Below, in pieces: positions 17,606 through 47,800 of a stretch of DNA of 64,000 nucleotides. The stretch comes from Heliocidaris erythrogramma. Its lineage: Eukaryota > Echinodermata > Echinoidea > Camarodonta > Echinometridae. Made by a program: the position numbers and the translations under genes. The notes beneath the pieces are model-generated. The model worked only from the letters and a program-made list of their open reading frames with translations. It ran no database searches and had not been told where the DNA came from. The stretch is from contig CM046859.1 in the NCBI GenBank assembly GCA_025617745.1, forward strand, positions 24,552,006-24,616,005, given 5' to 3'. Position 1 is the first letter of the stretch. Every line of letters begins with the position of its first letter.

Positions 17606-17771
17606 ATAATTATCATCATCTGTGATTCTGTCATACCTTGAGGAAGTGGAGAGCAGGGACTCGATCATCTCGTCTTTCTCCCTAGTATGATCCAAGCTGG
17701 ACGTCAACATTGCTCAACAACAGAATTCTTCGCATAATGGCAAAGAGGGAGCCCTTCCCAATAGTAAAAAT
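17606..17771 (+). other. 5' untranslated part of the first KEAP1 coding exon
   Basis: A polypyrimidine stretch and AG acceptor end at 17605 (TTTTATACTGCAG). In the KEAP1 frame a TGA at 17688-17690 is followed by no ATG until 17772, so the upstream part is untranslated in that frame. The exon therefore starts with about 166 nt of 5' UTR, and at least one more 5' exon must exist upstream. Confidence 0.65.
17687..17737 (+). CDS. Short upstream ORF 1 in the KEAP1 leader
   Basis: The ATG at 17687 opens a 16-codon frame ending in TAA at 17735-17737. The last base of its stop codon is the first base of the next upstream ATG (TAATG). It codes for no recognisable peptide. Its interest is as a possible translational brake on KEAP1. 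Confidence 0.3.
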
Positions 17772-17967
17772 ATGGACCCACCACGAGTACCCCCAAAGCC
17801 ACCTGCCAATGACCAGGCTAGCAACCCGCCCAGTGAATGGCCACAGAAAGGAATCCGTCACAAGATCAGCTGTGATGGAAGCATCACCTTTACCAGTACC
17901 AAACACCCTGCTAACGCATTCAAGGTTGTTAGTGAACTGCGGGAGAACCGCGATTTGTGCGATGTGA
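17737..17967 (+). CDS. Upstream ORF 2 overlapping the KEAP1 start
   Basis: The ATG at 17737 opens a 76-codon frame that passes over the KEAP1 ATG in another frame and stops at TGA 17965-17967. Ribosomes that start here could not easily reinitiate at 17772. Much of the frame is shadowed by true KEAP1 coding sequence, so its peptide is probably not under selection of its own. Confidence 0.3.
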
Positions 17968-19042
17968 CGCTTATCGTCGAGACTGTCAAATTCCATGCCC
18001 ACAAGGTGGTGCTAGCATCATGTAGTCAGTACTTCAAGGCAATGTTCACAAGCGGGTTCCATGAGTGCTCCAAGCAGAGCATCGAGATCAAGGATGTACA
18101 CCCTTGTGTCTTCTCGCGGATAATGGACTTCATCTATACCTCCGAGATCACAATCACTGAGTGTAGTGTCCTGGAACTTTTACCCAAAGCGATTATGTTC
18201 CAGATCACAGACATTGTGGACGCATGCTGTAATTTTCTGGAGCACCAGTTGGACCCAACAAATTGTATAGGAATATCAATGTATGCAGAGGAACACAGTT
18301 TACGTAGCCTCTCGGAACAAGCGAGTATGTTTGTTTTCCGTCACTTCTGTGAAGTATCGCAGTCGGAAGAATTCATGAACCTCAACCTGGTGCAGCTTCT
18401 AACGGTTATCAAGCATGACAAGCTGAATGTCTGGTGTGAGTCGGAGGTCTATGATGCCTGCCTCAGGTGGGTGCGCCATAAAGAGGACGAGCGTAGGCCT
18501 TGTCTAGAGAAACTCTTCAACTGCGGCGCCATACGTGTGGAGCACCTCTCACCAGCATTCCTCAAGAGGCAATTGGACCGTTGCGACATTCTCAGGGACG
18601 AGCCAAAGTGCAAAGACTACCTGTCCAAAATCTTCCAAGAACTGCAGCTGCATAAGTCCTTCAAGACGCCCAAACGGAACCCCATTTCAGCATGTGTAAT
18701 TTACACTGCCGGGGGCTATCTCCGCCAGTCTTTGACGACTGTGGAATGCTATAACCCTGAAGAAGACCGATGGCTCAGGTTAGCTGACCTCCCAGAGCCA
18801 AGGAGTGGACTCAGTGCAGCAACCATACATGGTATATTTTATGTGGTAGGAGGCAGGAACAATACAGCAGAGGCTAACACAGACTCCAATCGCCTTGATG
18901 CGTACAATCCCCTCAATAACCAATGGAAAACACTCCCTCCCATGAACCATCCTAGGAATAGAGTAGCAGTAGCGGTACTAGATGGACTATTGTATGCTGT
19001 AGGAGGTTCACATCAATGCAATCAACACAATAGTGCAGAAAG
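17772..19042 (+). CDS. KEAP1: KEAP1 coding exon 1: BTB, BACK/IVR and Kelch 1-2
   Basis: This exon encodes residues 1-423 and two bases of codon 424. The BTB core includes the DVTLIV and [10 protein letters not shown] motifs. The IVR keeps C222, C230, C271 and C280, equivalent to mammalian C249, C257, C288 and C297. Kelch blades 1-2 carry the GGY and GGRNN contact motifs. The donor AG|GTAAAT is at 19043. The 3' end corresponds to the known vertebrate exon boundary after the NSxER sequence. Confidence 0.95.
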
Positions 19043-22000
19043 GTAAATGTTATTCAAAATATTTGTTTAACTTCTGTCTTCTCAAGAAGTCTGGAGGAGT
19101 AATTTTTTTATTTTTATGCAATCAAAGCCTAATATAGCACACGACTCCAGCCCTGGGGGACCAGACTGTTGGTCTTGCTCCGGGCTATATTTGTCAAAGA
19201 CAGGCACAGGGAAAGGTTTGGTATTGGGTTTTATCTAAGGCTTAGGGTTAGGGTTAGGAATAGTGTTTGGTCCAGGGTTGAAGTTAGGAATAAGGTTAAC
19301 GTAGGAAATTGACCTCAGAGCAATTGTCACTGGAGCAGGTGTCGCAAAACCTGGTTTTGAACTCAAGAAATATGGATAGGTGTTGTTGTTTTGAGGGGTT
19401 GGTTCTGTTGAGGTTGACAAGGTCATCACCTGCTACCAGGTGTACATTTAGTCAGAGTCAGGGTTTCATGTTGCTCAAATTCATCAACACCCAAGTGCTA
19501 TCAGTCAAGGACCAACAGGAAAAATGCGCAATCATGCACATCGCTAGAGTTGCATTGGTCATCTCATTGGAACGAGATTGCTCCAAATCGTCACTTTCTG
19601 GCGCCTCAGCATGATAAGCCATTTTTTCTGTGCTGCTGTGGGCCAGGCCTGCCAGGCAATGACTGACAGCTACTGGCCAGTCATTCACAAGGGGGACTTG
19701 CCTGACTTGCTCGCCTGCCTGCTTGCTCCTTACTATTCTGCATCGTCATGACCCTTATCTCCCCCCTTCCCACTCCCCCCTCTCTCAAGGGTCATTACCA
19801 GGTATCTGACTTTTAAGAATCAAGTTGGGATAATTGTCATTGTCATTGCTTTATTGTTCAGTGTTTCCTTCTCATGACCTCGTCAAACCCGGTCTGGGAG
19901 ATTCTTAGTTATGGGTGGGTATGAGTGTGTGTAGACATCCATATTTTCAATTGGCAATGTATGACCTAGATGTTTCATGAGATATTCTTTTGGCTAATGT
20001 TCTGTTGGTACTGTAGTAAAAAAGTAGCAAATTCATTAAGCGTATTGCTGTAATAGTTATCCCTTCTTCATTGCCATCTTCCCCCCCCCCCCCCCGCATG
20101 TCCTTTTTCTAATATTTTCTGCAATTTGATAAGATAAGATAAGATAAGATTTATCGACTGGTATCGACCCCCTCTCAGGGCATGAGAGTACAAACAAAAA
20201 ACATTTACAAATATTATACATGTACATACATTATAAGTGTAAATATATAGTAGATAAAACATTGTATAAAAACATTTTGATATTAAGTCATCACACTATC
20301 CCTCTCTTTCTCCCTCTCATTGATCCTCTCTTTTTCTTTCTCTTTCTGTTTGTCTGTCTTTCTCTGTCTCTCTATCTCGTATCTCTCTCTCTATCTTTCT
20401 CTCTGGATATCTTTATTCTATTTTTCATATTTTTACCTGTCCAATACCATGGAGGTAAGAAGAGGTGAATGTCTCCATCATACCACAGAAGCATTTGTCA
20501 TCTCCATCTCATCACATTCCCCCATATGGCTCCCATCTGGCATCATCCTCCCTCCTCCCTCTCCTCCTCCCACGCCATCATCCCTCATCCTGCCGGGATC
20601 GAAACAATAATGTCTCACCCCCTCTTCCCCCCGCCCCGCCAGCATCCTGCCCTCCCTGTTCCCTGTAGACTCTCAGTGGATGTGCCCTCTATAGAGAATG
20701 CCAGCTTGTAGTAATACCTTCCATCTGAGACAGTGACATTTGAAAATAATGACTCCACACATTGTGTTTCTCTCTTTGTGTGTTTTTGTCCCTCTCTCTT
20801 TCTCTCTATACCACTGTCTGCCTTTCCCTCTCCTATCCATTTTGCTTTGATCAATATGTCCTTTCATTCCAGTTTCCCTTAATGTCAGAATAAGGACACT
20901 GTCCTTTGGAAAGGTTAATGTACATTTGAAAATAAATGTAGAAAATATTTTATCTCAAATTCTACAAGACTCGGTACCCATTCATAATACGGATGTCAAA
21001 ATATGTTACATGATTCCTTTAAATATTGGACTGTTATACTGATATAATATACATCTACATGTAAGTGTACATTCAGGCAGAGACATGGATATCTTTACAT
21101 GTATGTAAATAAGGGAGAGTTGGTTCCAGGTTTCTTCAGCTTACACGTATGATACAATGTGCACCTGCTTCCATTATTTTTCTTTTCATTTTCATAATTG
21201 CCATGTTTCTCTTTCCATATCATCTCTTTCCATATCATCTCTTTTCTCTCTCTCTTACCCCATCTCATCTTTTCTCTCCCACCACAGTCTTTTTAATACA
21301 AAAATATTCAGTCCATCTGCCATTGCTCTCAATCTCATGTTTCATTACTCGCAAAGAATACCAATGACGTACGAAACTGCCATGAGAACACACACCACTT
21401 AGAAACGATAATACCTGATTAGATCTCTTTACTTGCTGAATTATATGTGAATTAAACTGACTTTATTGACTTCGAGGTTTTAGGCTTGTACATATAGCTA
21501 CTCTGGAAATTGTAGGCATGACTTTTGAAGTTGAGAAAGGGACGGGGTTAATTATAAAAGGTGTAAAGGAAGGAGAAAGCAAAGTTATTTTCGGTGTTTT
21601 GGAGTTGAGCACCGATCAGCGGGCGAGGCAGCGGTGGCAAGGAGCAATCAAGCGGTAACAGATATTTCAGTGCACAATTGGGTGGCGAGTTTGCGACCAA
21701 CAGTGCATGAGTCGACATAACGTGCATGCGATGACATGCATGTCTGACAAACTGGCGGTGTTATGTAGAGTCATGACTCCCTGCAAGCAAGCCACTAAGC
21801 CAAGGGGAGGGGATAGTCTTGCCCAGATACAGACCCTGTATATAAGACATCTTGAAATATTATATTGAATAGGATTTCAGTGTGATACTTGATAAACTCT
21901 GGAATTCAAAATTTAATTTTTGTATTTGTTAGCTTGAGAGTACCCGAAAATGCACAAGATTAAATCTTTTAGCCTGTTGGAAACTTCAAATAAAAATACT

Positions 22001-24569
22001 GTGTTTAATGGACAATTCATCATCTTTCAAAGAGTGCTAAAAATGCCAATTCATATCCTTCTTTTTTTAATATATTTTTTCCTGTGCAATTCTTGCAGTA
22101 ATACCTACACATCCATTTTATTGCTGGCCTGGAGAAGAATTTAGGAGTGGGTGCATTGTTTGATGACTTTCGATTTCATTACATTTGAGCTTAAACATTT
22201 TATTCAATAATCTTTGAGGCAAACAAACCCAACCCTAACATGAAAGATGCCATACTGTTCCATTCAGTCCTCACCCTCTTGCCTTATCAAGGATGTTATC
22301 CTAATAAAAAGACTAATCTTTCCTTTCAGCGTGTGGTTATTTCCTGATGTTCATTTCTGATTTCAAGTGTTTTTCTATTGTACTATAGTTTGCCAATACT
22401 GAAAAATAAAGCAACACTTTCCTGTTTGTAATGTTGTTGTTGCCCCTCAAACAACTACTCTGAAAATTGCTCCTTTTCTAATATCTTCCTGGCTTGAAAC
22501 CAAATTGGAGTTATTCATGACGATGGCCTCACCACAAATGCGCGGCAGGTTCGTTTGTCGAGGCACTCACCCCTGGGTTCAAGCAGGCTTCTCCCACAGA
22601 CTAACAGGGGGAAAGTCACTTGTTACTCCACACAATTGCATTGTCATTGCGGCCAGGTAATTGAATCATCGGAGTACTACTAATCGGCAAATTGCGCTTT
22701 CTGCGTTGACAAATTGCACGTCCTGTTGGCATTTCAGCTGCACATCACAACCCCCCCCCCTCCTTTGAGGATCTAGACGAGAGAGAGAGAGAAAGGATTC
22801 TGAGAAGAGAGTCGACCCCCTGAAATCTTTATACTTAAATGCCTTTCTTGCATTGCGTATTAATGTAAGAGAGCGTGAGATGCTTAATTGAAAAGATATG
22901 CACAATGTGGGATGTCCGATATTAGCATCAGTCTCTGAGGAATGCTTGCCAGCTTTGCCATGATGTTAAAGAAATGATGATGATTGATTTCTTGATTGGA
23001 AGCATTTTTTTTACTCTTTTAGATAACCCTTGTTACTGTATGTCATATTTCTTGTTGTAAATTGCACATTAAAAAATTCAAATAGATATTTGTTTATAGA
23101 CAAGATGCACAAATGTCACAAAATACAGTGGAGTACATGATAAAATTTGTGTTCAGATGATGGTTGTATCACATACACTTCATATTCCTTGAGTGTATCA
23201 TAAACTAAATACCCCTTCCTTTCTCTTTTCCCCATCTGCTTACAGATACAATCCAGATGAGGAGAAATGGTCAATGATAGCCCCGATGCATACCAAGAGG
23301 ATAGGGGTTGGGTGCGCAGTGGTCAACCGACTGCTCTATGCGGTGGGGGGATTCGATGGCGTCAATCGTCTCAACACAGTGGAGTGCTATCATCCTGAGA
23401 ACGATGAATGGACGATGGTGACCGCCATGAACACACGGCGCAGTGGAGCAGGTAAGGAAGCTTCAGACAATGGGTTCTTAGCATGAGGGGAATGAGGGCT
23501 TTAGGAGTTGTTAAACCTCGAGCTAGCTCCGGAGTATTCTGGGCCAATGACCATCTGTAATCATCTCAAGGATTTTATGACCGTTTAAATACAGCATTAA
23601 CACCCTGCTGGTTTGAGAACTCACATGTTTGGCTAAAGAGGACATCAACATAACATTTCAACAGCAAACTTTTATTATTTGTATGAATTCATTTGCACAA
23701 GTAAACACCTTTGCTCCCTACCAATCACACTCTCTCAATGCAGAGTTGAAATTTCCATGCGTAGTGCTAGTATTCAATTTTAAAAGATTTTGAATCGGTG
23801 AATATAGAGACATTAAATCCAGTGGGCATTGAACAAGGACTACATTTATGCATTTTCCAGCTTGTCCTTCCCCTTTACTTTAAATCCATTCTATGTTTAC
23901 ATTACCTACAGGAAACCATCTTTTTGTGAATATGTTCACTCATCTGTTCCAACTATTTTGTTTCACTCTTTGCAGGGGTGACAAGCCTCAATGGTTTCAT
24001 CTATGCTGTGGGTGGCTACGACGGTATGAGCCAACTCAACAGTATGGAACGCTATGATGTGGAGAACGATCGCTGGGAATTCATGGCGTCTATGAACTCA
24101 CGAAGGAGCGCCCTCAGTGTTGATGTAGTGGGAGGCAAGGTCTATGCATTAGGTGGGTATTGATCAGAAAAAAGTTTAATTCCCATGCTGTTTGTTAGTA
24201 GTTATGGAGGGACTCAAGAAGTTTTATCTCTTTGTGGGCTCCATAGCATTCTGTGCCCATGGTCATAAGTTTGTCAAAAGTAAATGGTCATTGCATGCTG
24301 GTTGATTTACCAAAATATTTATACTGTTTCTCTGATTATGAATGAAAATATTTATACTGTTACTCTAAGGATTTTTTTTTTCATTCTCTATTATAGGTGG
24401 TTATGATGGTCAAGACTTCTTATCATCTGTGGAGTGCTACGACCCTATGTCCGACACCTGGCAGGTGGTCACCAACATGTGCAGCGGGCGGAGTGGGGCC
24501 GGCGTGGCAGTGGGCATGGAACCATGTAAGACCGGCATGTGTGGCAGTGGCGGCAATTCTAATCGGTGA
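17772..24569 (+). CDS. KEAP1: KEAP1: NRF2-binding CUL3 adaptor, redox sensor (4 coding exons)
   Basis: Joining 17772-19042, 23246-23451, 23976-24152 and 24397-24569 gives 1827 nt, encoding 608 residues and a stop. All junctions are in phase at GT-AG sites. Residues about 43-150 form the BTB domain, 155-290 the BACK/IVR region, and 306-597 six Kelch blades. The family presents NRF2 to the CUL3-RBX1 ubiquitin ligase in the cytosol and releases it on electrophile or oxidant stress. NRF2-contact residues known in mammals are present: Y316, R318, S345, R362, N364, N396, R397, R465, S490, Y507, Q512, S537, Y554, F559 and S584. The ATG at 17772 is the first after an in-frame TGA. BTB, IVR and the first Kelch repeats share one exon, whereas vertebrates, as I recall, have an intron there. 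Sensor cysteines differ from mammals (see findings). The 524-bp and 244-bp introns between the last three exons hold nothing recognisable. Confidence 0.95.
19043..23245 (+). other. KEAP1 intron (4.2 kb) between Kelch 2 and Kelch 3
   Basis: The intron runs from GTAAAT at 19043 to the acceptor CTTACAG at 23239-23245. It holds degenerate TTAGGG-like words near 19240-19300, a GATAA microsatellite at 20129-20150, pyrimidine-rich tracts near 20280-20420 and 21170-21290, and poly-C runs at 20082-20096 and 22750. I see no coding exon in it. Confidence 0.8.
20129..20150. repeat. GATAA microsatellite
   Basis: Four to five consecutive GATAA pentamers lie inside the large KEAP1 intron. Confidence 0.85.
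23246..23451 (+). CDS. KEAP1: KEAP1 coding exon 2: Kelch 3-4
   Basis: 206 nt encode residues 424-492 plus the first base of codon 493. The exon contains the blade motif [10 protein letters not shown] and R465 (mammalian R483, an NRF2 contact). It ends in RRSGAG with S490 (mammalian S508). The acceptor is CTTACAG at 23245 and the donor is G|GTAAGG at 23452. Confidence 0.95.
23976..24152 (+). CDS. KEAP1: KEAP1 coding exon 3: Kelch 4-5
   Basis: 177 nt encode residues 493-551 and one base of codon 552. The exon contains [10 protein letters not shown] with Y507 and Q512 (mammalian Y525 and Q530) and RRSAL with S537 (mammalian S555). The cysteines found near this blade in mammals (C513, C518) are replaced by T and G/F-type residues. 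The donor GTGGGT is at 24153. Confidence 0.93.
24397..24569 (+). CDS. KEAP1: KEAP1 last coding exon: Kelch 6 and C-terminus
   Basis: The exon encodes residues 552-608 and the TGA stop at 24567-24569. The acceptor CTATTATAG precedes it. It holds the GGYDGQDF blade with Y554 and F559, GRSGAG with S584, and the C-terminal MEPC motif with C595 (mammalian C613). The short tail [13 protein letters not shown] differs from the mammalian cysteine-ended tail. Confidence 0.93.
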
Positions 24570-38800: not shown

Positions 38801-41800
38801 ACTACACTGCTGTGTTTGCCCGAGGGAGCAAGGGGATGATTATCAATGCTGCGAAGACATCAATACACCTGGGGAGCGTTTCATCAAGCATTTTGTCAGT
38901 GATTTTTACCGACAACTGTTATATGCTACTGAAATCCTTGCATCTGATTGGCTGAGAGCAAATTTGTCAGTAAAAAGCACTGACAACACGCTTGATGAAA
39001 CGCTCCCCTGATAATACATGCACATACCATGTATGTTGGCAGGCTTTACTTGGCCAAATAACAGAGTACAATTTAAATATGTTAAAACCTTAACATGTTC
39101 CTGTCAACCCGAGAAAGTTTAAGAGACTCATTCAGATGGAATGGCTACCTTTCTCTTCTCTGACCATTGTTCTCTCATAGCGTCCACCGTTGAGGTCTTC
39201 TAGAACAGTCATCAGCTCGGTCACTCTCTGGGTGAACCTGTTCAGTAAGGACAAAGATAAAGGAGATTTAACATAGAGATAAAATATATGTTACAGCTCC
39301 AGTTCTAAATCGTAAGGTTTGTATGGACTTTTCTCTTCCTTCTTACATATTTTCTTTCAACTGTTCCTGCATAAATGAGACACAGAAAAGGAGAAATGAG
39401 GGAGGGAGAGAAAGAGAGAGAGAGAGAGAGAGAGGGGGAGGGAGGGAGGGAGAGAGAGAGAGAGAGAGAGAGGGAGGGAGAGAGAGAGAGAGATAGCAAG
39501 TGGGAGGGGGAGACAGAGAGAAAGCAATACACTGGGACAGAGAAGGGTGAAATAAGTCTTGGAAAAAACTGCCATTCAAAAAAAAATGCTATTATAAAAA
39601 AAATTAAAGCCCACAAGTTTGGCCACAATTATAACTTCATTGACAATGAGTATTCAAAACTGAATAATTATCATCATTAAAATGAATCCAACAACATTAC
39701 AGACTTTGCCTTATTCAAACCTGGTATTTGGTATAAAACAAATTACAGATTATTTCTATTTTGCTTTATTTCCATTATCAATTCAATGCAGAGACTACAT
39801 TTTCAACTACCAAAACACATTAAATCTTGTGAAAAAGTCTCTGTACATTTACCATCATGTATTTTCTCAAACAATAGCAACTTATATAACACATGCATGT
39901 ATATCACATGCAACATATATATATACATATATATATTCCACCAGCATATAAAATATATGTATGTTATTATTTTTATCATCAGTAATGTGTTATTAAGAAA
40001 TACATGTATATATTAAATATTTTACTGGTGATATTGAAAAACTGGGTAACATATAAAATGAGCTGGATCAAGCTACATTGTACATTTTTGCATGATTATT
40101 TTACAGTGCAAGGATAAGGAAAGGACTAACCACACTGAATGCAGAAGACAGGCATCACAACACATTTTTCGAAGGATTGTGTGAATGAATGTTTAAGACC
40201 ATGATCCAAGGAATATGACAATAAGCCAGTTCATCATTAGTTTATGGTACAAATGACCCTGAAATGACCCCAACTGATACGCGCACAAGCATTTGTTTTG
40301 GTGGACGTGCTACTTAGTTAACATGTAAAATCATCCCGGTGCGCGCATCGTGGTGCATACAAAATGACAGCGTATAAAGGTCAATTGTACTCGGTACAAA
40401 TGACCTTCATTTGCAAATGCGGTAATCGTAATTTACGAACTGGATTATTAATAGAAAAATGCCTGTGACAAATATCTTCCACGTTCATTGTGATTAGCGT
40501 GTACACAACAACAACAAATATTTTCATGCATGCAGTGGCACATGAATGGTATAAACATAAAATGAAAGATAAATTAAGAGAAAACATACACATGTTGCAC
40601 ATGAAATGAAAACACATTCATGAACAAGATGTTGACTCAGAATTCTCAGATTCTACCTCAAGTAAAACAGAAAACATACTGATGATTACGACCAAAATAT
40701 CGAACATGATTTCTTTCAAAGCACTACTCAGAATGCAGTAATAAATACTGTTCAACTACCAATTTTACAGAGAGAGAGAGTGAGAAATAGAGGGTTACCA
40801 GTACCTTTGGGACAAAGACTAAAAAATGAAATGAAAAATAATCAGACATTTCATTATACCTTCAAAGAAAAACTTCTAATGAAGCAAAAGGTTCAGCACT
40901 TTTTTTTCTCAACAAAACAACCCCCACAAACAACAACAACTTTGGGGCAAGGAAGAAAAATCATAACAAATTGCAATGTACAATTACAATGAACTCACAG
41001 AAACTTGCCTGTAGAGAAATAAAACACACACACTCATATACAGTATAAACTAGCACCCCCTTCTTTCTGCACTGGTCCCCTTCATCTGCTTTTACTATGA
41101 AATTCTTAAATGAAAAGGTAGACAATTTTAGTTTGAATTTCAGTATTTGTAAGGAACATCCTTTTAAATGTGTTTTGTTGGAAAAATCCAGACAAGAAAG
41201 TTGACTGGAAATATCACACTAATGACATTATTTCAATATTTTTTAAATAGTCAAATGTGCCAATCTTCAAACAAGTAATTTACATTCTCACATACTACAT
41301 GTCAATGCAAAACTTCTTAAAACATGCCATGAACAATTCCGTTCAGAGTACTTTGAAAACATTTGCTACATTGGGTGATTTCACGCTCGGTGTTGGTGTT
41401 TGGTGTTAGTGTCTATTTTGCCCGAAAAAAAATCAGTCGGTGTTAGGTGTTGACCTCTGATTTTTTTGACGTAGTTCCGGTTGCCGGTGTTTGTTTTTTG
41501 TTAAAAATCGTCTACTGAACCGAGCTCGGCCGTCGGTGTTTAATTTCATGTACAAATTCCCATTCACTAACACTATACCCCTAGGGATTAAGAAATACCG
41601 ATTTCACGGTCGGTGTTGGTGTTGGTGTTTCTAGCTATGGGAAATTTTGCTGATTAGTCATGAGAAATAAAGACAGTAGGCGCTATTCGAAGTGTAATTT
41701 CATAGGCGTTAAGAGGTATTATGTTCATATAGGCCTGATATTAGATCTAGGCCAGCATTTGGTCTAACGTTCGATCTAGAGCACACGGAAAGGAACTACT

Positions 41801-44800
41801 TTTGCTTTTTAATGGGTTTGAAGGAGTGAATAAAAATTCCGACCTAATTTTCTTTTTAAGATAGATTTAATAAAAATGACGTTAGATATTCCGTAGTTAA
41901 AGACCCAGAGAATCCACATCATTTATCAGGATGAGATCTAAATCAACATTTACAATACAAAAGCCATGAATCTTCACGGCTAATCTGTGCCAAGGCCTGA
42001 AATTTGGCTGTTTGCCCTGTACACGCTACGCCGTCCGATCCGGCGTCTAGCTGCATTAGCTACCGCAGCATTTTCTGCTGCAAGTGAGAAATTCAAGAGA
42101 AATCATATCTAAACTTACTGTTCCTGTCAAGACTATCCATTTCTGTGAAGTTTCTTACCACACTCTAGATCAAATAATTATTTATTTTAGAATTGCCGGA
42201 CTACTCTAATTTAAGGATATTCTAGACTAATAATTAAATAGTTTTAAACAATTTTTTTCCCTTCGTTAAAAACGGTGCTGACGCCATTACCAGTGTTAAG
42301 CTATCGATGCGCTTTGTTAGGATATCGGTATCGGCTCCTTAATCTGAATAGCGGTGTTTGAGCTCGATTTTAGGATAATTTTCGCTCTAAACACCAACAC
42401 CAAACACCAACACCGAGCGTGAAATCACCCATTGTGTAACATAAATAACCAACAAGTGACTGATTTGTGCAGTTTTTTACCATACAGCACATCACCGGTT
42501 GACCTTCGACCTCTGACCTTGGTACTCACCCTGATAACCTGGCCATTTCGCGACCAGAAAGGATGAGACGTCCTACAGCCTGAGCCAACCTCAGTAGCAT
42601 CCTACCTGCTTGGTAATACTCCTAGGCATTGCAGGAGGGTGGGGGTGATTGGAATGAAAAAGTAAGTGGTATCAAAATGGAACACAAAGAGTAATATGAT
42701 ACGATGATGATGTGATTTGAAGTGAACCATTGCTGGATGACAAGGCTGACCTTTGTATCTATCTAGATGCAAAATATAAGGGGTGAAAGTGTTTAACAGC
42801 AGAAGTGATCTGATGTCTGGGTAAACGAATGACAGAGAGCTTGGGGTAGATGCCATCTTTTTGGTGATCATCCACAGATGGTTCCTTCGTGATGTGATTT
42901 AACCAATTTTAGGCAAGAGGGATGGGCGATCTGTGAAGATATGATGCAAGCTGCAGTCAGTGCTAACATGATGTAGCTCATTCACGTGAGGTTGAAGTTT
43001 TGATAAGGTTATAAGAACCAGTGGCGGATCTACATAGGGGGAACACCGGCCCCCCTTATTGTTTACTTTTACGGCATTGTGCCCCCTCTTTTTAAAATTC
43101 TGGATCCGCCCCTGGCAAGAACAGACACAAGACAACTGGATACCACAAAGGTCAGTACAGTACACAAAGAGGTTGTATACATCAAATGAAAGGCAAGGAG
43201 TTAATATGCAGTGCATTCGTTTTACACAAAGACAGGGAAGACCACAATGGAACTGTATGCACAAAACAGACAAGAAGCTATAAAACTACGAAAAACAGAA
43301 CACAAGACAACGCAATACAAAATGTTAACCAGTATGGGTGCATGCATGCATGTGAGATGGTGAAAACGGCATGGAGTGCAGTTATCTAGTAATCCTCAAA
43401 AATAATGATTTCTATCTATATTAAGAGGAAGCAAAGCGGGATGTTCTTGTTATACCCTTCTCATACTAGTTTTTAGTCTTACCCTGCAAGGCGTGTCATT
43501 TCTCGCCCCGATAGAACCACACGACCGATTGCTTCCGCTAATCGCACCAACATTCTGCCTGCCCTATAGTAGTGCTATACAATCACAAAGAGATGGGAAG
43601 TGAACTGAAGAACATGCCAATTATAAACTTTTGCCCTTTTCCTTTCCTTAAATTAGTTTGATGAATTTTCAATGTTTTTTATGAGTAGAATTTTGCAGCA
43701 CTGAATTCTAATGGTGGGAGACAACCATGAAATTTTCAAAAGCTTCTGAATGATTTCTTTATTCAATCAAACTTGCATTTTAAGCAAAATAAATACACAT
43801 GTATGTATGTGCATGTTGCACCCTAATGGGAATGCAATGTGGATTACAACACAACTGAATACACTTGCAGATATTTAAATATTGGAGTTGTGCTGCTATA
43901 TTGAAGGAGGTGACCAAATTCATTCAGTGACTTACCCTGCCAGGCGCGTCATTTCACGCCCTGACAGAACCACACGACCAATTGCCTCGGCCAGTTGAAC
44001 AAGCATGCGACCGGCAAGATAGTAAAGCTACATATAACAGTCCATGCAAATATCAAATACACAAAAAAGGCAACATGAACAGAAAATTGCATCAAATCTT
44101 CAGACAGGGACTTCTGTAAGTAGAGATTGACAACTGACAGCAACATCTGTCTGACAATCAAACTTAAAATGCATAACAGCCAACTGCAATCAACCATTCG
44201 TCAGGTTGGGGCTAAAATCTTGTGATTGGCTGTATTTTATTGCAAAGAAAGTGCAATAGAAATAATTATTTTTAGAATAAGGTTGGATGAAAGTAAAGTC
44301 TGTCTGTAATTCAATAGTCAATACACGTTAATACCCTTCCCATTTGCAATAAACCACTGTTATAAATGCACATTTCTATTTTTTTGCTAAAGGCCTCTAG
44401 AACCATGTATTAGTTCAGTGCCACCACCAGAAGAATCTGAAAATAGGCTTTGGGATACCCCAAACTCTTACAATTCACACAACTTTTATTTCAATGACTG
44501 AATAGTTACAAGGTTATTTCCCAATAAGAAACTAAATCATTGTCATAGAAAACAAAATGGCAGAAGTATTCTCAAAATGCAATAATCTTTGTCCAATGAA
44601 ATCCTTCAATTGGTTTGAAATATTTGCCTGGCTAAGAAAAATCATGGTAGATATTGCATAGTCATTTTTATTACCCACATCTCTAGAATAGACAGTTATC
44701 TGTAAATAGCACAGTTTAAAAACCTAGATGTTCAGGATACATTCATAAATTTTAGCAAATCAAAAGTGACATAAAGGGTAACATGGGAGAAAATGAATGT

Positions 44801-47800
44801 GTGATTTCTCAATAATATTAATTTTTTGTAACTGTTTGAGAAGACTCCTATGTCTTTCATACATTAGTTAATCTTTAAAACATAGCCCTGAGAAATGATG
44901 ACAACAAATAAACGAGAATCATATAAAATTTACCTTGAAAGTCAAAAACTCCCAATAATACTAATATAACAACAAATAATAGATGGAAATGCGTAAGGAT
45001 TCCCACCATCTACATCCTCAAAATTTCAGAGCAAGTTTCAGATCATTTCTTTCGCTATACAGTTTCACTACCAAAACTCACGATTACATTCAAAGAGGAC
45101 CAATCGCCCTAATATGATTTGCTCGAAATGTTTGGGTTCCATGTCCGTATACTAAATGTATATTCAAAAGTATCAGCTTCAAATATGACTTCTGTATCGT
45201 AAAACCTGCAAATTTAAATACTTTCTAAATACAGGGAGTCCACTCAACACACACGATTGTGCACAGGAACCCATGCCTGGCTTGGGTTCCATGGGCATTG
45301 CGCAGGCTTATGTGATCCTTATTTTCTTTATACTCCTTAACCATGCACCCATAGAATACCAAGCAAAGTTGTTTCGGTTTGATTTCCTATATAATAGCTG
45401 TCCACAAATTATTCTTTTAGGTGAAAAATGAAAACGACAAAGAAAAAATAAGTTGTAAAATAATCAGGCTGATGGTGGAGTACGACTCCGAAACATGTTC
45501 CGTTTCAAAACTTATGTTTTCTTTGTCGTTTTCATTTTTAGGTGATTGGTCGCCTTGAATGCTACAGAATCTTGCTCACAAAGGTGCAATGTTTGCACAT
45601 ACCTCCATCATCTGTGAGTGTGACATCGTGAGGAAGGGTTTGTGAGCTAGGTTCAAGAATGGACGACTCACGACCATGTATCCTACAACGGTAGCAACAT
45701 CTATAAACAAAACATAATATAAATATCAAGATCGTGGATGGGAATTACAAATCAAGTGAATTATAATTAGAGTATTCAATGTAAAAATAGACATATACTC
45801 ACAGGATTTGCTAATGAATTTACCGGTACAAATATACAGTACATGTACATGTATGTAACATTAACTTATTATGTTGTTCTTGTACTTTAGCTTAAGATAT
45901 TACATGTAATTCCTTACTTTGTGTTGTACATTATTTGATATGTATGTTATACCCCTTTCCTTTCTTTAGTGTAATATATTTTGTTTGTAGAGCCCCATGA
46001 GCATCATACTTGACGTATACTGGTGCTATATAAATATCCATATAATTATTATTATTAAATGAGCAAGAAATTGACAGTGAATAAAAGGCTCTTGATGACA
46101 GAAATATCATCTTTTTACACTCACATTTTGCGATGATGTTGTCCACAAAACCCATTGAGAATCGGAAGAAGATAAAGGTGTGTAGATGGTCCACCTGTAA
46201 GCATGAAAATAAAAGTTAATTTCACATTTCATGTCTTAAAGGTAATGTGCAGTTTTGGTAAGCCCTCAAAAACTGATCGTCAGCGTTATTTGATTTTAGA
46301 TGATAAATAGCAAGATACTACCATAACTAAGCTGCTGTGAATCTTTACTTCCTCAAGTTTGATATTAAACAAGTGAGAGGTAATAAATAAGTTAGATACC
46401 GGGACAGGGATCTAAACTCCTACAACGTGTACTCCTGTAAAGGAATGTGTATGCATGCACAAGCTGTCTTCCTTGATTTGCAAGGAGATTGTTGTCCGGC
46501 CAGCCGTCAGGGTGGAAGGGTCCTAGCATAGGGCAGTGTATAGCCTTTCTGTGGATATACATGTAGATATGAAGTTTTAAAATGTATTGCCATGTAATCA
46601 TAGAAATGCACAGCACAATATAACTGGAGAGTAAGAACCTTTCAAGGAGAATATCTATTCCAAGGATTAGGGCCCTGTTTCATAAAACTTGTTATCAATA
46701 ACAACTGCCCCATTACTATGACAAATTTGCTCTCAGCCAATCAGATTCAAGGATTTCATTAGCTTCTAACAATTATTGTAAATTGTTATTGATTACAGGT
46801 TTCATGAAACAGGGCCTAGATAATTTTTGCAGCAGATGATGATGATGATATCACCTGGGAGGGGGTGGGGGAAGGTTCACATCTTTTGCATCATTCACCT
46901 ACTAGGGCAGGATAAGAGGCCACAAACAAATCTGTCTGAATAAAAAAATAAAAAACAATAAAAATATTTACCAGTTTCTTAAATGTCTTGTTGATTGTTC
47001 TCTGCTCAGGCTTGTTACCCTGGTAGAAGGCAATCTCCTCGCTGTTTGTGATTAGACGAGAGTTGACGAATCTGAACTCGCCCTCATACTGCTGCTCCTG
47101 AACGGTCATCTTACCCACAGGTCTCCTTAATCTATACACACAAAAACAGACCACAAACACAGCCTGTTCACATCCGTTCTTGTAACATAATACCAGACTG
47201 GTTTTCATTCTCATTAGGCAGACTTTATTCTGATATTCTAACACAAACTGAAATACGAGCTCATGACAGATCCTTGAGGGAAATTTCATGTCATCTTTCT
47301 AGCTACAACTATATACATTTTATCCGATATCTTTCAAAGATATCCTCAATGTTTCTTTTAATACTTATTATAATATTCCTTTTCAAGACTGTCTTTCAAA
47401 AATCAAACTGAGCAATGACTATCTCAAGTAATTCAACAACTGTAAAACCAGAAATTTGGCGTGCATGAAACTTTTGTGAACTTCAAGATTGAAACAAAAT
47501 TTTTTTTTTAATCCTTTTATTTCAAAAGTTTTAATAAAAAGGTAACAATCAATCCCACGATACAAGTTCTTCAACATTGTACAGGGTATATATACAATCA
47601 TATGACAAAAGCAAGGCAATAGCCATATAACAAGTCGAGTACACAATTATGTATATCAAAATATGAACAAAATGATTATAACATTATTATTATCATTATT
47701 AATATCATTATTATCATTATTATTATCATTATTAATATTATTTTTATTATTATTATTATAATTATTACTATTATTATTATTTACCTAACTGCGACTTAAG

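Follow-up and report, generated by a model that had tools for sequence, protein, structure and literature searches.

Does a single gene for a peroxisomal half transporter provide three alternative versions of one membrane helix by mutually exclusive splicing? This question is raised by a stretch of 64,000 nucleotides from the echinoid Heliocidaris erythrogramma (GenBank assembly GCA_025617745.1, contig CM046859.1, positions 24,552,006 to 24,616,005 of the forward strand), here called the window, whose own numbering is used for all coordinates below. A first-pass annotation of this window had assigned a gene to ABCD3 and had proposed that one of its internal exons is present in three tandem copies, of which one would be used per mRNA.

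Gene model and ABCD paralogues

ABCD3 exons were located along the minus strand by tblastn with human ABCD3. The gene model was then built by a junction search that admitted only GT-AG borders and scored candidates on their likeness to the human protein, the donor and the pyrimidine tract; the 5' boundary that it assigns to exon 2 is uncertain. The features relevant for the present work are the following, with the copies of the exon for transmembrane helix 6 (TM6) designated c1, c2 and c3 in gene order:

32787-63777, minus strand: whole ABCD3 (PMP70) coding region, 21 exon positions, 671 amino acids with any single copy
45603-45700, minus strand: exon upstream of the cluster in the gene model, ends in phase 0, end of its peptide ...SHSQMME
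43936-44027, minus strand: TM6 exon copy c1, first in gene order, 92 nt, AG/GT flanks, stop-free, recovered by the assembly search
43483-43574, minus strand: TM6 exon copy c2, 92 nt, AG/GT flanks, stop-free, recovered by the assembly search
42530-42621, minus strand: TM6 exon copy c3, 92 nt, AG/GT flanks, stop-free, recovered by the assembly search
39149-39237, minus strand: exon downstream of the cluster in the gene model, starts in phase 2

In the model protein, Pfam detected PF06472 (ABC_membrane_2) at residues 84-352 (E=1e-103) and PF00005 (ABC_tran) at residues 469-611 (E=3e-17). The protein has the layout of an ABCD half transporter, with an ABCD-type membrane domain and one ABC ATPase domain. 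When the joined exon pieces were compared with the PDB, ABCD3 chains led the matches (E 7e-123 to 7e-122) and were followed by 'ABC transporter D family member 1' (4e-83), ABCD1 (3e-44) and ABCD4 (9e-22); no ABCD2 chain was present among the best 60 of the 129 matches. The identification of the gene as ABCD3 was supported by this ranking of the ABCD3 chains ahead of the other ABCD proteins. That the protein would reside in the peroxisomal membrane follows from its family only.

Across the assembly, PF06472 was found in three places with 11 matches in all, namely in the present gene, at one locus on contig C1 and at one locus on contig C4. From their exon pattern and residues, rather than from a tree, we call the latter two loci ABCD1/2-like and ABCD4-like, respectively. 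A duplication of the TM6 exon was not found in these two paralogues, each of which gave one clear TM6 match in the 10 kb fetched per locus. Three more partial matches of the ABCD4-like TM6 query (E 0.5-0.69) were taken as chance.

Three copies of the TM6 exon

Direct inspection of the sequence placed all three copies on the minus strand at the coordinates originally assigned to them. Each copy is 92 nt long, starts in phase 0, ends in phase 2 with GG, comprises 30 codons without an in-frame stop and is flanked by AG on its 5' side and GT on its 3' side, which bears out the lengths, phases, intact splice sites and complete coding segments that had been claimed. The homology and the tandem layout of the exons were likewise upheld; their rank as exon 14 was not, as they occupy the 13th of 21 positions in the present gene model. 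The copies have the sequence features of a mutually exclusive exon cluster, i.e. they are adjacent internal exons of like length and the same phase, similar to each other and stop-free.

In repeat finding, c1, c2 and c3 formed a single three-copy family that extends just 3-5 nt past the exons; over 100 nt, c3 is 62% and c1 77% identical to the middle copy c2. Nucleotide divergence amounts to 25% for c1/c2, 41% for c1/c3 and 40% for c2/c3, and the corresponding amino-acid identities are 27/30, 20/30 and 21/30. Between the copies, the 60-nt flanks are identical at 17-21 of 60 positions, compared to 15 expected randomly with equal bases. From these divergences, we infer that c3 probably split first and long ago, and that the separation of c1 from c2 is more recent.

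The 1.06-Gb assembly was searched with the 31-amino-acid peptide of c3 at E values up to 10. The three matches obtained were c1, c2 and c3 themselves; such a search scores its best candidates only, in this case 3 of 3. With c1 DNA as the query, c1 and c2 were matched. Retrocopies that would indicate which copy is spliced were not returned by either query in the whole assembly, with the best candidates scored.

Reading frame of the possible transcripts

All eight subsets of c1, c2 and c3 were translated between fixed flanking exons. The full frame of 671 amino acids was obtained in three of the eight combinations, which are the single-copy ones only. If no copy is included, a stop is reached after 389 codons, and with two or three copies translation ends after 409-411 codons. 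With all three copies included, the length is again right modulo three, yet a stop is met within c2. The proposal that none or two copies would break the frame and that a single copy yields the full-length protein was therefore substantiated by this translation.

A stop codon far upstream of the last exon junction is a standard target of nonsense-mediated decay. In all five non-single combinations, the early stop lies at nt 1167-1233 and the last junction at nt 1846-2122. Since the frameshift stop precedes the last exon junction by more than 600 nt, mRNAs with any number of copies other than one should be removed by nonsense-mediated decay.

Signs of constraint on the three exon copies

The differences between the copies are distributed unevenly over codon positions 1, 2 and 3, with 4, 3 and 16 differences for c1/c2, 13, 3 and 22 for c1/c3, and 13, 1 and 23 for c2/c3. 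Third positions are identical at 14/30, 8/30 and 7/30 codons for c1/c2, c1/c3 and c2/c3, respectively, and second positions at 27/30, 27/30 and 29/30. The combination of near-random third positions in c3 with second positions of which 27 and 29 of 30 are shared suggests that selection acts on the copies as coding exons. Over the exon, c1 is identical to human ABCD3 at 20/31, c2 at 21/31 and c3 at 21/31 residues, and on account of this near-equal likeness no copy looks degraded.

In neutral simulations (20,000 per pair), not a single run had amino-acid changes as few as observed, for all three pairs. We also applied a crude drift test, which takes an unconstrained partner as the null and allows half of the changes to be neutral. 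Drift was rejected by this test for c1/c2 (P=0.005) and not for c1/c3 (P=0.21) or c2/c3 (P=0.13). A sharper test lets one lineage drift freely, allows multiple hits and uses the lower bound of the third-position divergence. For positions 1 and 2 together, it gave P=0.037 for c1/c2, 0.041 for c1/c3 and 0.0018 for c2/c3, and for position 2 P=0.085, 0.0006 and 2e-6, respectively. On balance, these results suggest constraint on all three copies, the position-2 result for c1/c2 being the weakest of the sharper-test set.

Residues of TM6 that differ between the copies

The exon segment aligns to residues 356-386 of human ABCD3 (PDB 8z0f and others) and encodes TM6. The residue letters of the aligned segment agree with those named in the part of the ABCD3 structure paper drawn on here (PMC11369193). 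Named there for TM6 are Gly372, whose main chain binds the pantothenate; Ile374 and Val375, which touch the phytanoyl chain; and Arg379 and Arg383, which contact a CoA whose placement in the ATP-bound map was tentative. Residues 372, 379 and 383 are invariant across c1, c2 and c3. Residues 374-375 read V-V in c1 and c2 and L-I in c3, which are conservative changes (V/I/L). Overall, 10 of the 31 positions of the exon are variable (356, 359, 365, 366, 369, 371, 374, 375, 382 and 385).

For ABCD1, residues 384, 388, 392 and 396 of TM6 are described to line the acyl chain and Arg401 to contact adenine (PMC9177597, in excerpt). The register between ABCD1 and ABCD3 was obtained by a hand count back from the shared A-[IL]-x-R-I motif, guided by the ABCD1-like paralogue of this genome. 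By that hand count, ABCD1 residue 384 falls on ABCD3 residue 356, where c1 has L, c2 has H and c3 has E. Named ABCD3 acyl contacts thus make up two of the ten variable positions, and a third, 356, is added only by analogy with ABCD1. With few variable sites being known contacts and mild swaps at 374/375, the idea that splicing would exchange part of the acyl-CoA pocket is suggestive only. The hypothesis put forward in the ABCD3 structure paper is that residues of the hydrophobic pocket decide the acyl-CoA preference of ABCD1, ABCD2 and ABCD3 (PMC11369193).

Splice sites, introns and sequence motifs

The donors of c1-c3 score 6.4-7.1, compared to 2.2-11.3 for the other donors of the gene. The acceptors of c1 (5.9) and c2 (3.2) are inside the range of the other acceptors. 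On a matrix made from the gene's other acceptors, that of c3 is weak (-2.4), two of the 19 others being lower. Among 1425 intronic AG decoys, 58% score as well as the c3 acceptor, 6% as well as that of c1 and 15% as well as that of c2.

The introns around c1 and c2 are the following:

44028-45602, minus strand: intron upstream of c1, 1575 nt, with a TGCATG (44048) some 20 nt ahead of the acceptor of c1
43575-43935, minus strand: intron between c1 and c2, 361 nt
42622-43482, minus strand: intron between c2 and c3, 861 nt, with two overlapping TGCATG motifs (43350/43346) some 135 nt downstream of the c2 exon

Steric hindrance was considered as a subclass of mutually exclusive splicing. The inter-copy introns of 361 and 861 nt exceed the shortest intron of the ABCD3 model (169 nt), so steric exclusion is unlikely. 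Pairing of docking and selector sequences gave no signal when four layouts were searched for ungapped helices in the one genome, as 43-126 of 200 shuffles reached the observed score.

Over the 6551 nt that stretch between the upstream and the downstream exon, TGCATG occurs eight times versus 2.8 expected at the window rate (Poisson P=0.008), for a motif that was chosen after seeing the sequence and with a count that includes overlapping pairs. Outside the cluster region, the same strand has 19 occurrences in 57449 nt, from which 2.2 would be expected in 6551 nt. Within the same 6551 nt, GCATG was counted 12 times (6.0 expected) and GCACG once (1.7 expected). The minus-strand TGCATG sites span 39897-45347 and partly form overlapping TGCATGCATG pairs (43350/43346, 40534/40530). 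RBFOX sites usually repress an exon when they lie upstream of it and enhance it when they lie downstream. An RBFOX-like reading of the TGCATG placement would favour c2 over c1 and is put forward as a lead only.

Further observations in the window and the assembly

The intron just downstream of c3 contains an element of about 1.07 kb (41368-42435) with 48-nt terminal inverted repeats that are 94% complementary; it has the appearance of a non-autonomous DNA transposon. Elsewhere in the window, the plus strand carries open reading frames at 17691-19046, 23193-23486 and 23930-24163, in opposite orientation to ABCD3. By our reading of these frames, the gene at 17691-24163 is probably of the BTB-Kelch type (KLHL-like).

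Mitochondrial COX1 was located on contig C24 and aligned to PDB chain 8d4t_N. The AAA codons face Asn at three of four positions (Gly at one) and the AAG codons Lys at three of three; the ten ATA codons, counted by eye, face Ile four times and Val, Leu and Met twice each. In the echinoderm mitochondrial code (table 9), which is common to flatworms, AAA stands for Asn and ATA for Ile, and the codon use of COX1 fits this echinoderm/flatworm code, in agreement with an echinoderm source of the assembly. The contig has 12905 bases and is probably incomplete, as it is shorter than the usual animal mitochondrial genome.

Alternative explanations

A duplication that arose in the assembly or from haplotypes can practically be dismissed. 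The copies differ from each other at 25%, 41% and 40% of their nucleotides and are embedded in unalike intron sequence (17-21/60), which makes such an artefact very unlikely, and the assembly itself comprises 1.064 Gb in 26 contigs. A single working copy, with the remaining two as relics spliced rarely or never, is improbable. The acceptor of c3 is weak on the local matrix, drift remains unrejected for both c3 pairs in the crude half-neutral test, and the second-position test of c1/c2 stayed at P=0.085, all of which would suit relics. All copies, however, have retained intact splice dinucleotides and are free of stops, the second positions of c3 are shared with the other copies at 27 and 29 of 30 codons beside near-random third positions, and the three copies are near-equally like human ABCD3.

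The copies might also serve partly as poison exons, such that double inclusion or skipping would be frequent and regulated and would lower ABCD3 via decay, and the differences in the protein would be secondary. This would be in line with the early stops, given above, of all five non-single combinations. Poison exons, however, need no conserved frame, whereas each copy keeps its frame and the residues of the helix, c3 doing so despite its near-random third positions. We therefore consider this explanation improbable.

Proposed mechanism and its implications

In our view, ABCD3 of H. erythrogramma probably carries three mutually exclusive TM6 exons, whose isoforms would differ in acyl-CoA preference or kinetics. 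As far as the genomic sequence can tell, the mutually exclusive architecture suggested in the first-pass annotation is supported by the frame logic and by the constraint on the copies. Every ABCD3 mRNA would take one copy of c1, c2 or c3; inclusion of none or of several would lead to a frameshift, an early stop and nonsense-mediated decay. Each copy would be used, to the exclusion of the others, and its use may be regulated, the choice of a copy probably being made via splicing factors, with frameshift and decay acting as a filter. With the CoA contacts constant in every copy and residues of the acyl pocket and other helix residues changing, the isoforms would be full importers that differ somewhat in acyl-CoA preference or kinetics. 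Because the working ABCD3 unit is a dimer made up of two half transporters, three isoforms encoded by one gene could combine into six dimer types.

A more far-reaching version, which we regard as possible but rather doubtful, is that of an ancient TM6 switch common to many echinoderms. Up to six dimer types would then differ in acyl-chain selectivity, and the animal, besides having separate ABCD genes, would tune by splicing the entry of branched or long acyl-CoA into the peroxisome according to tissue, diet or larval stage.

A natural swap in the TM6 pocket with constant TM6 contacts to CoA would provide a ready-made test of ABCD substrate preference. Such a case would also add a peroxisomal ABC half transporter to the organelle carriers with mutually exclusive splicing.

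Relation to known alternative exons

Human ABCD3 is the same gene, with 20-21 of 31 residues identical in the exon, and to our knowledge no alternative TM6 exon is known for it. Aberrant splicing of ABCD3 is reported for tumours with mutant U1 snRNA, the excerpt of that report giving no exon detail (PMC8773931). A description of alternative ABCD3 exons was not found in the literature, judged by titles and abstract openings among the matches listed. When animal relatives were sought with a 356-amino-acid ABCD3 query among genome contigs, only two distant bacterial MAG loci (25% and 29% identity) were returned, and against viral contigs there was no match.

Two other transporters are comparable: the mitochondrial phosphate carrier SLC25A3 has two copies of a mutually exclusive exon, and Drosophila dMRP/CG6214 of the ABCC family has internal exons for the membrane domain that are used alternatively. 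SLC25A3, which is named among the disease-linked genes with mutually exclusive exons (PMC5740500, in excerpt), resembles the ABCD3 cluster in being an organelle membrane carrier with such exons, but has another fold and belongs to another organelle. Drosophila dMRP, whose named isoforms include F, H, J and M (PMC4587908, in excerpt), is an ABC transporter like ABCD3 and has many splice isoforms; unlike ABCD3, it is no peroxisomal half transporter. In the oyster alternative oxidase CvAOX, exon 10 is duplicated and its splicing shifts with stress (PMC5589949, in excerpt). Here too, a duplicated and alternatively spliced exon is found in an organelle protein of a marine invertebrate, but it is a 3' terminal exon with two copies, in an enzyme (PMC5589949).

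The tandem-duplicated mutually exclusive exons of human genes, as far as described in excerpts of two catalogues (PMC5740500, PMC9741552), are likewise internal neighbours of like length, same frame and similar sequence. These catalogues have transcript or protein evidence, whereas the ABCD3 cluster is known here from the genome; the term 'ABCD3' is absent from the main text of both. Many of the validated cases depend on frames that clash when neighbouring copies are included together; in one cross-species comparison, this applies to 20 of 28 validated genes (PMC5740500, in excerpt). Within the literature searched, the mechanism is thus a known one, and the gene, the organelle and the swapped helix appear to be new.
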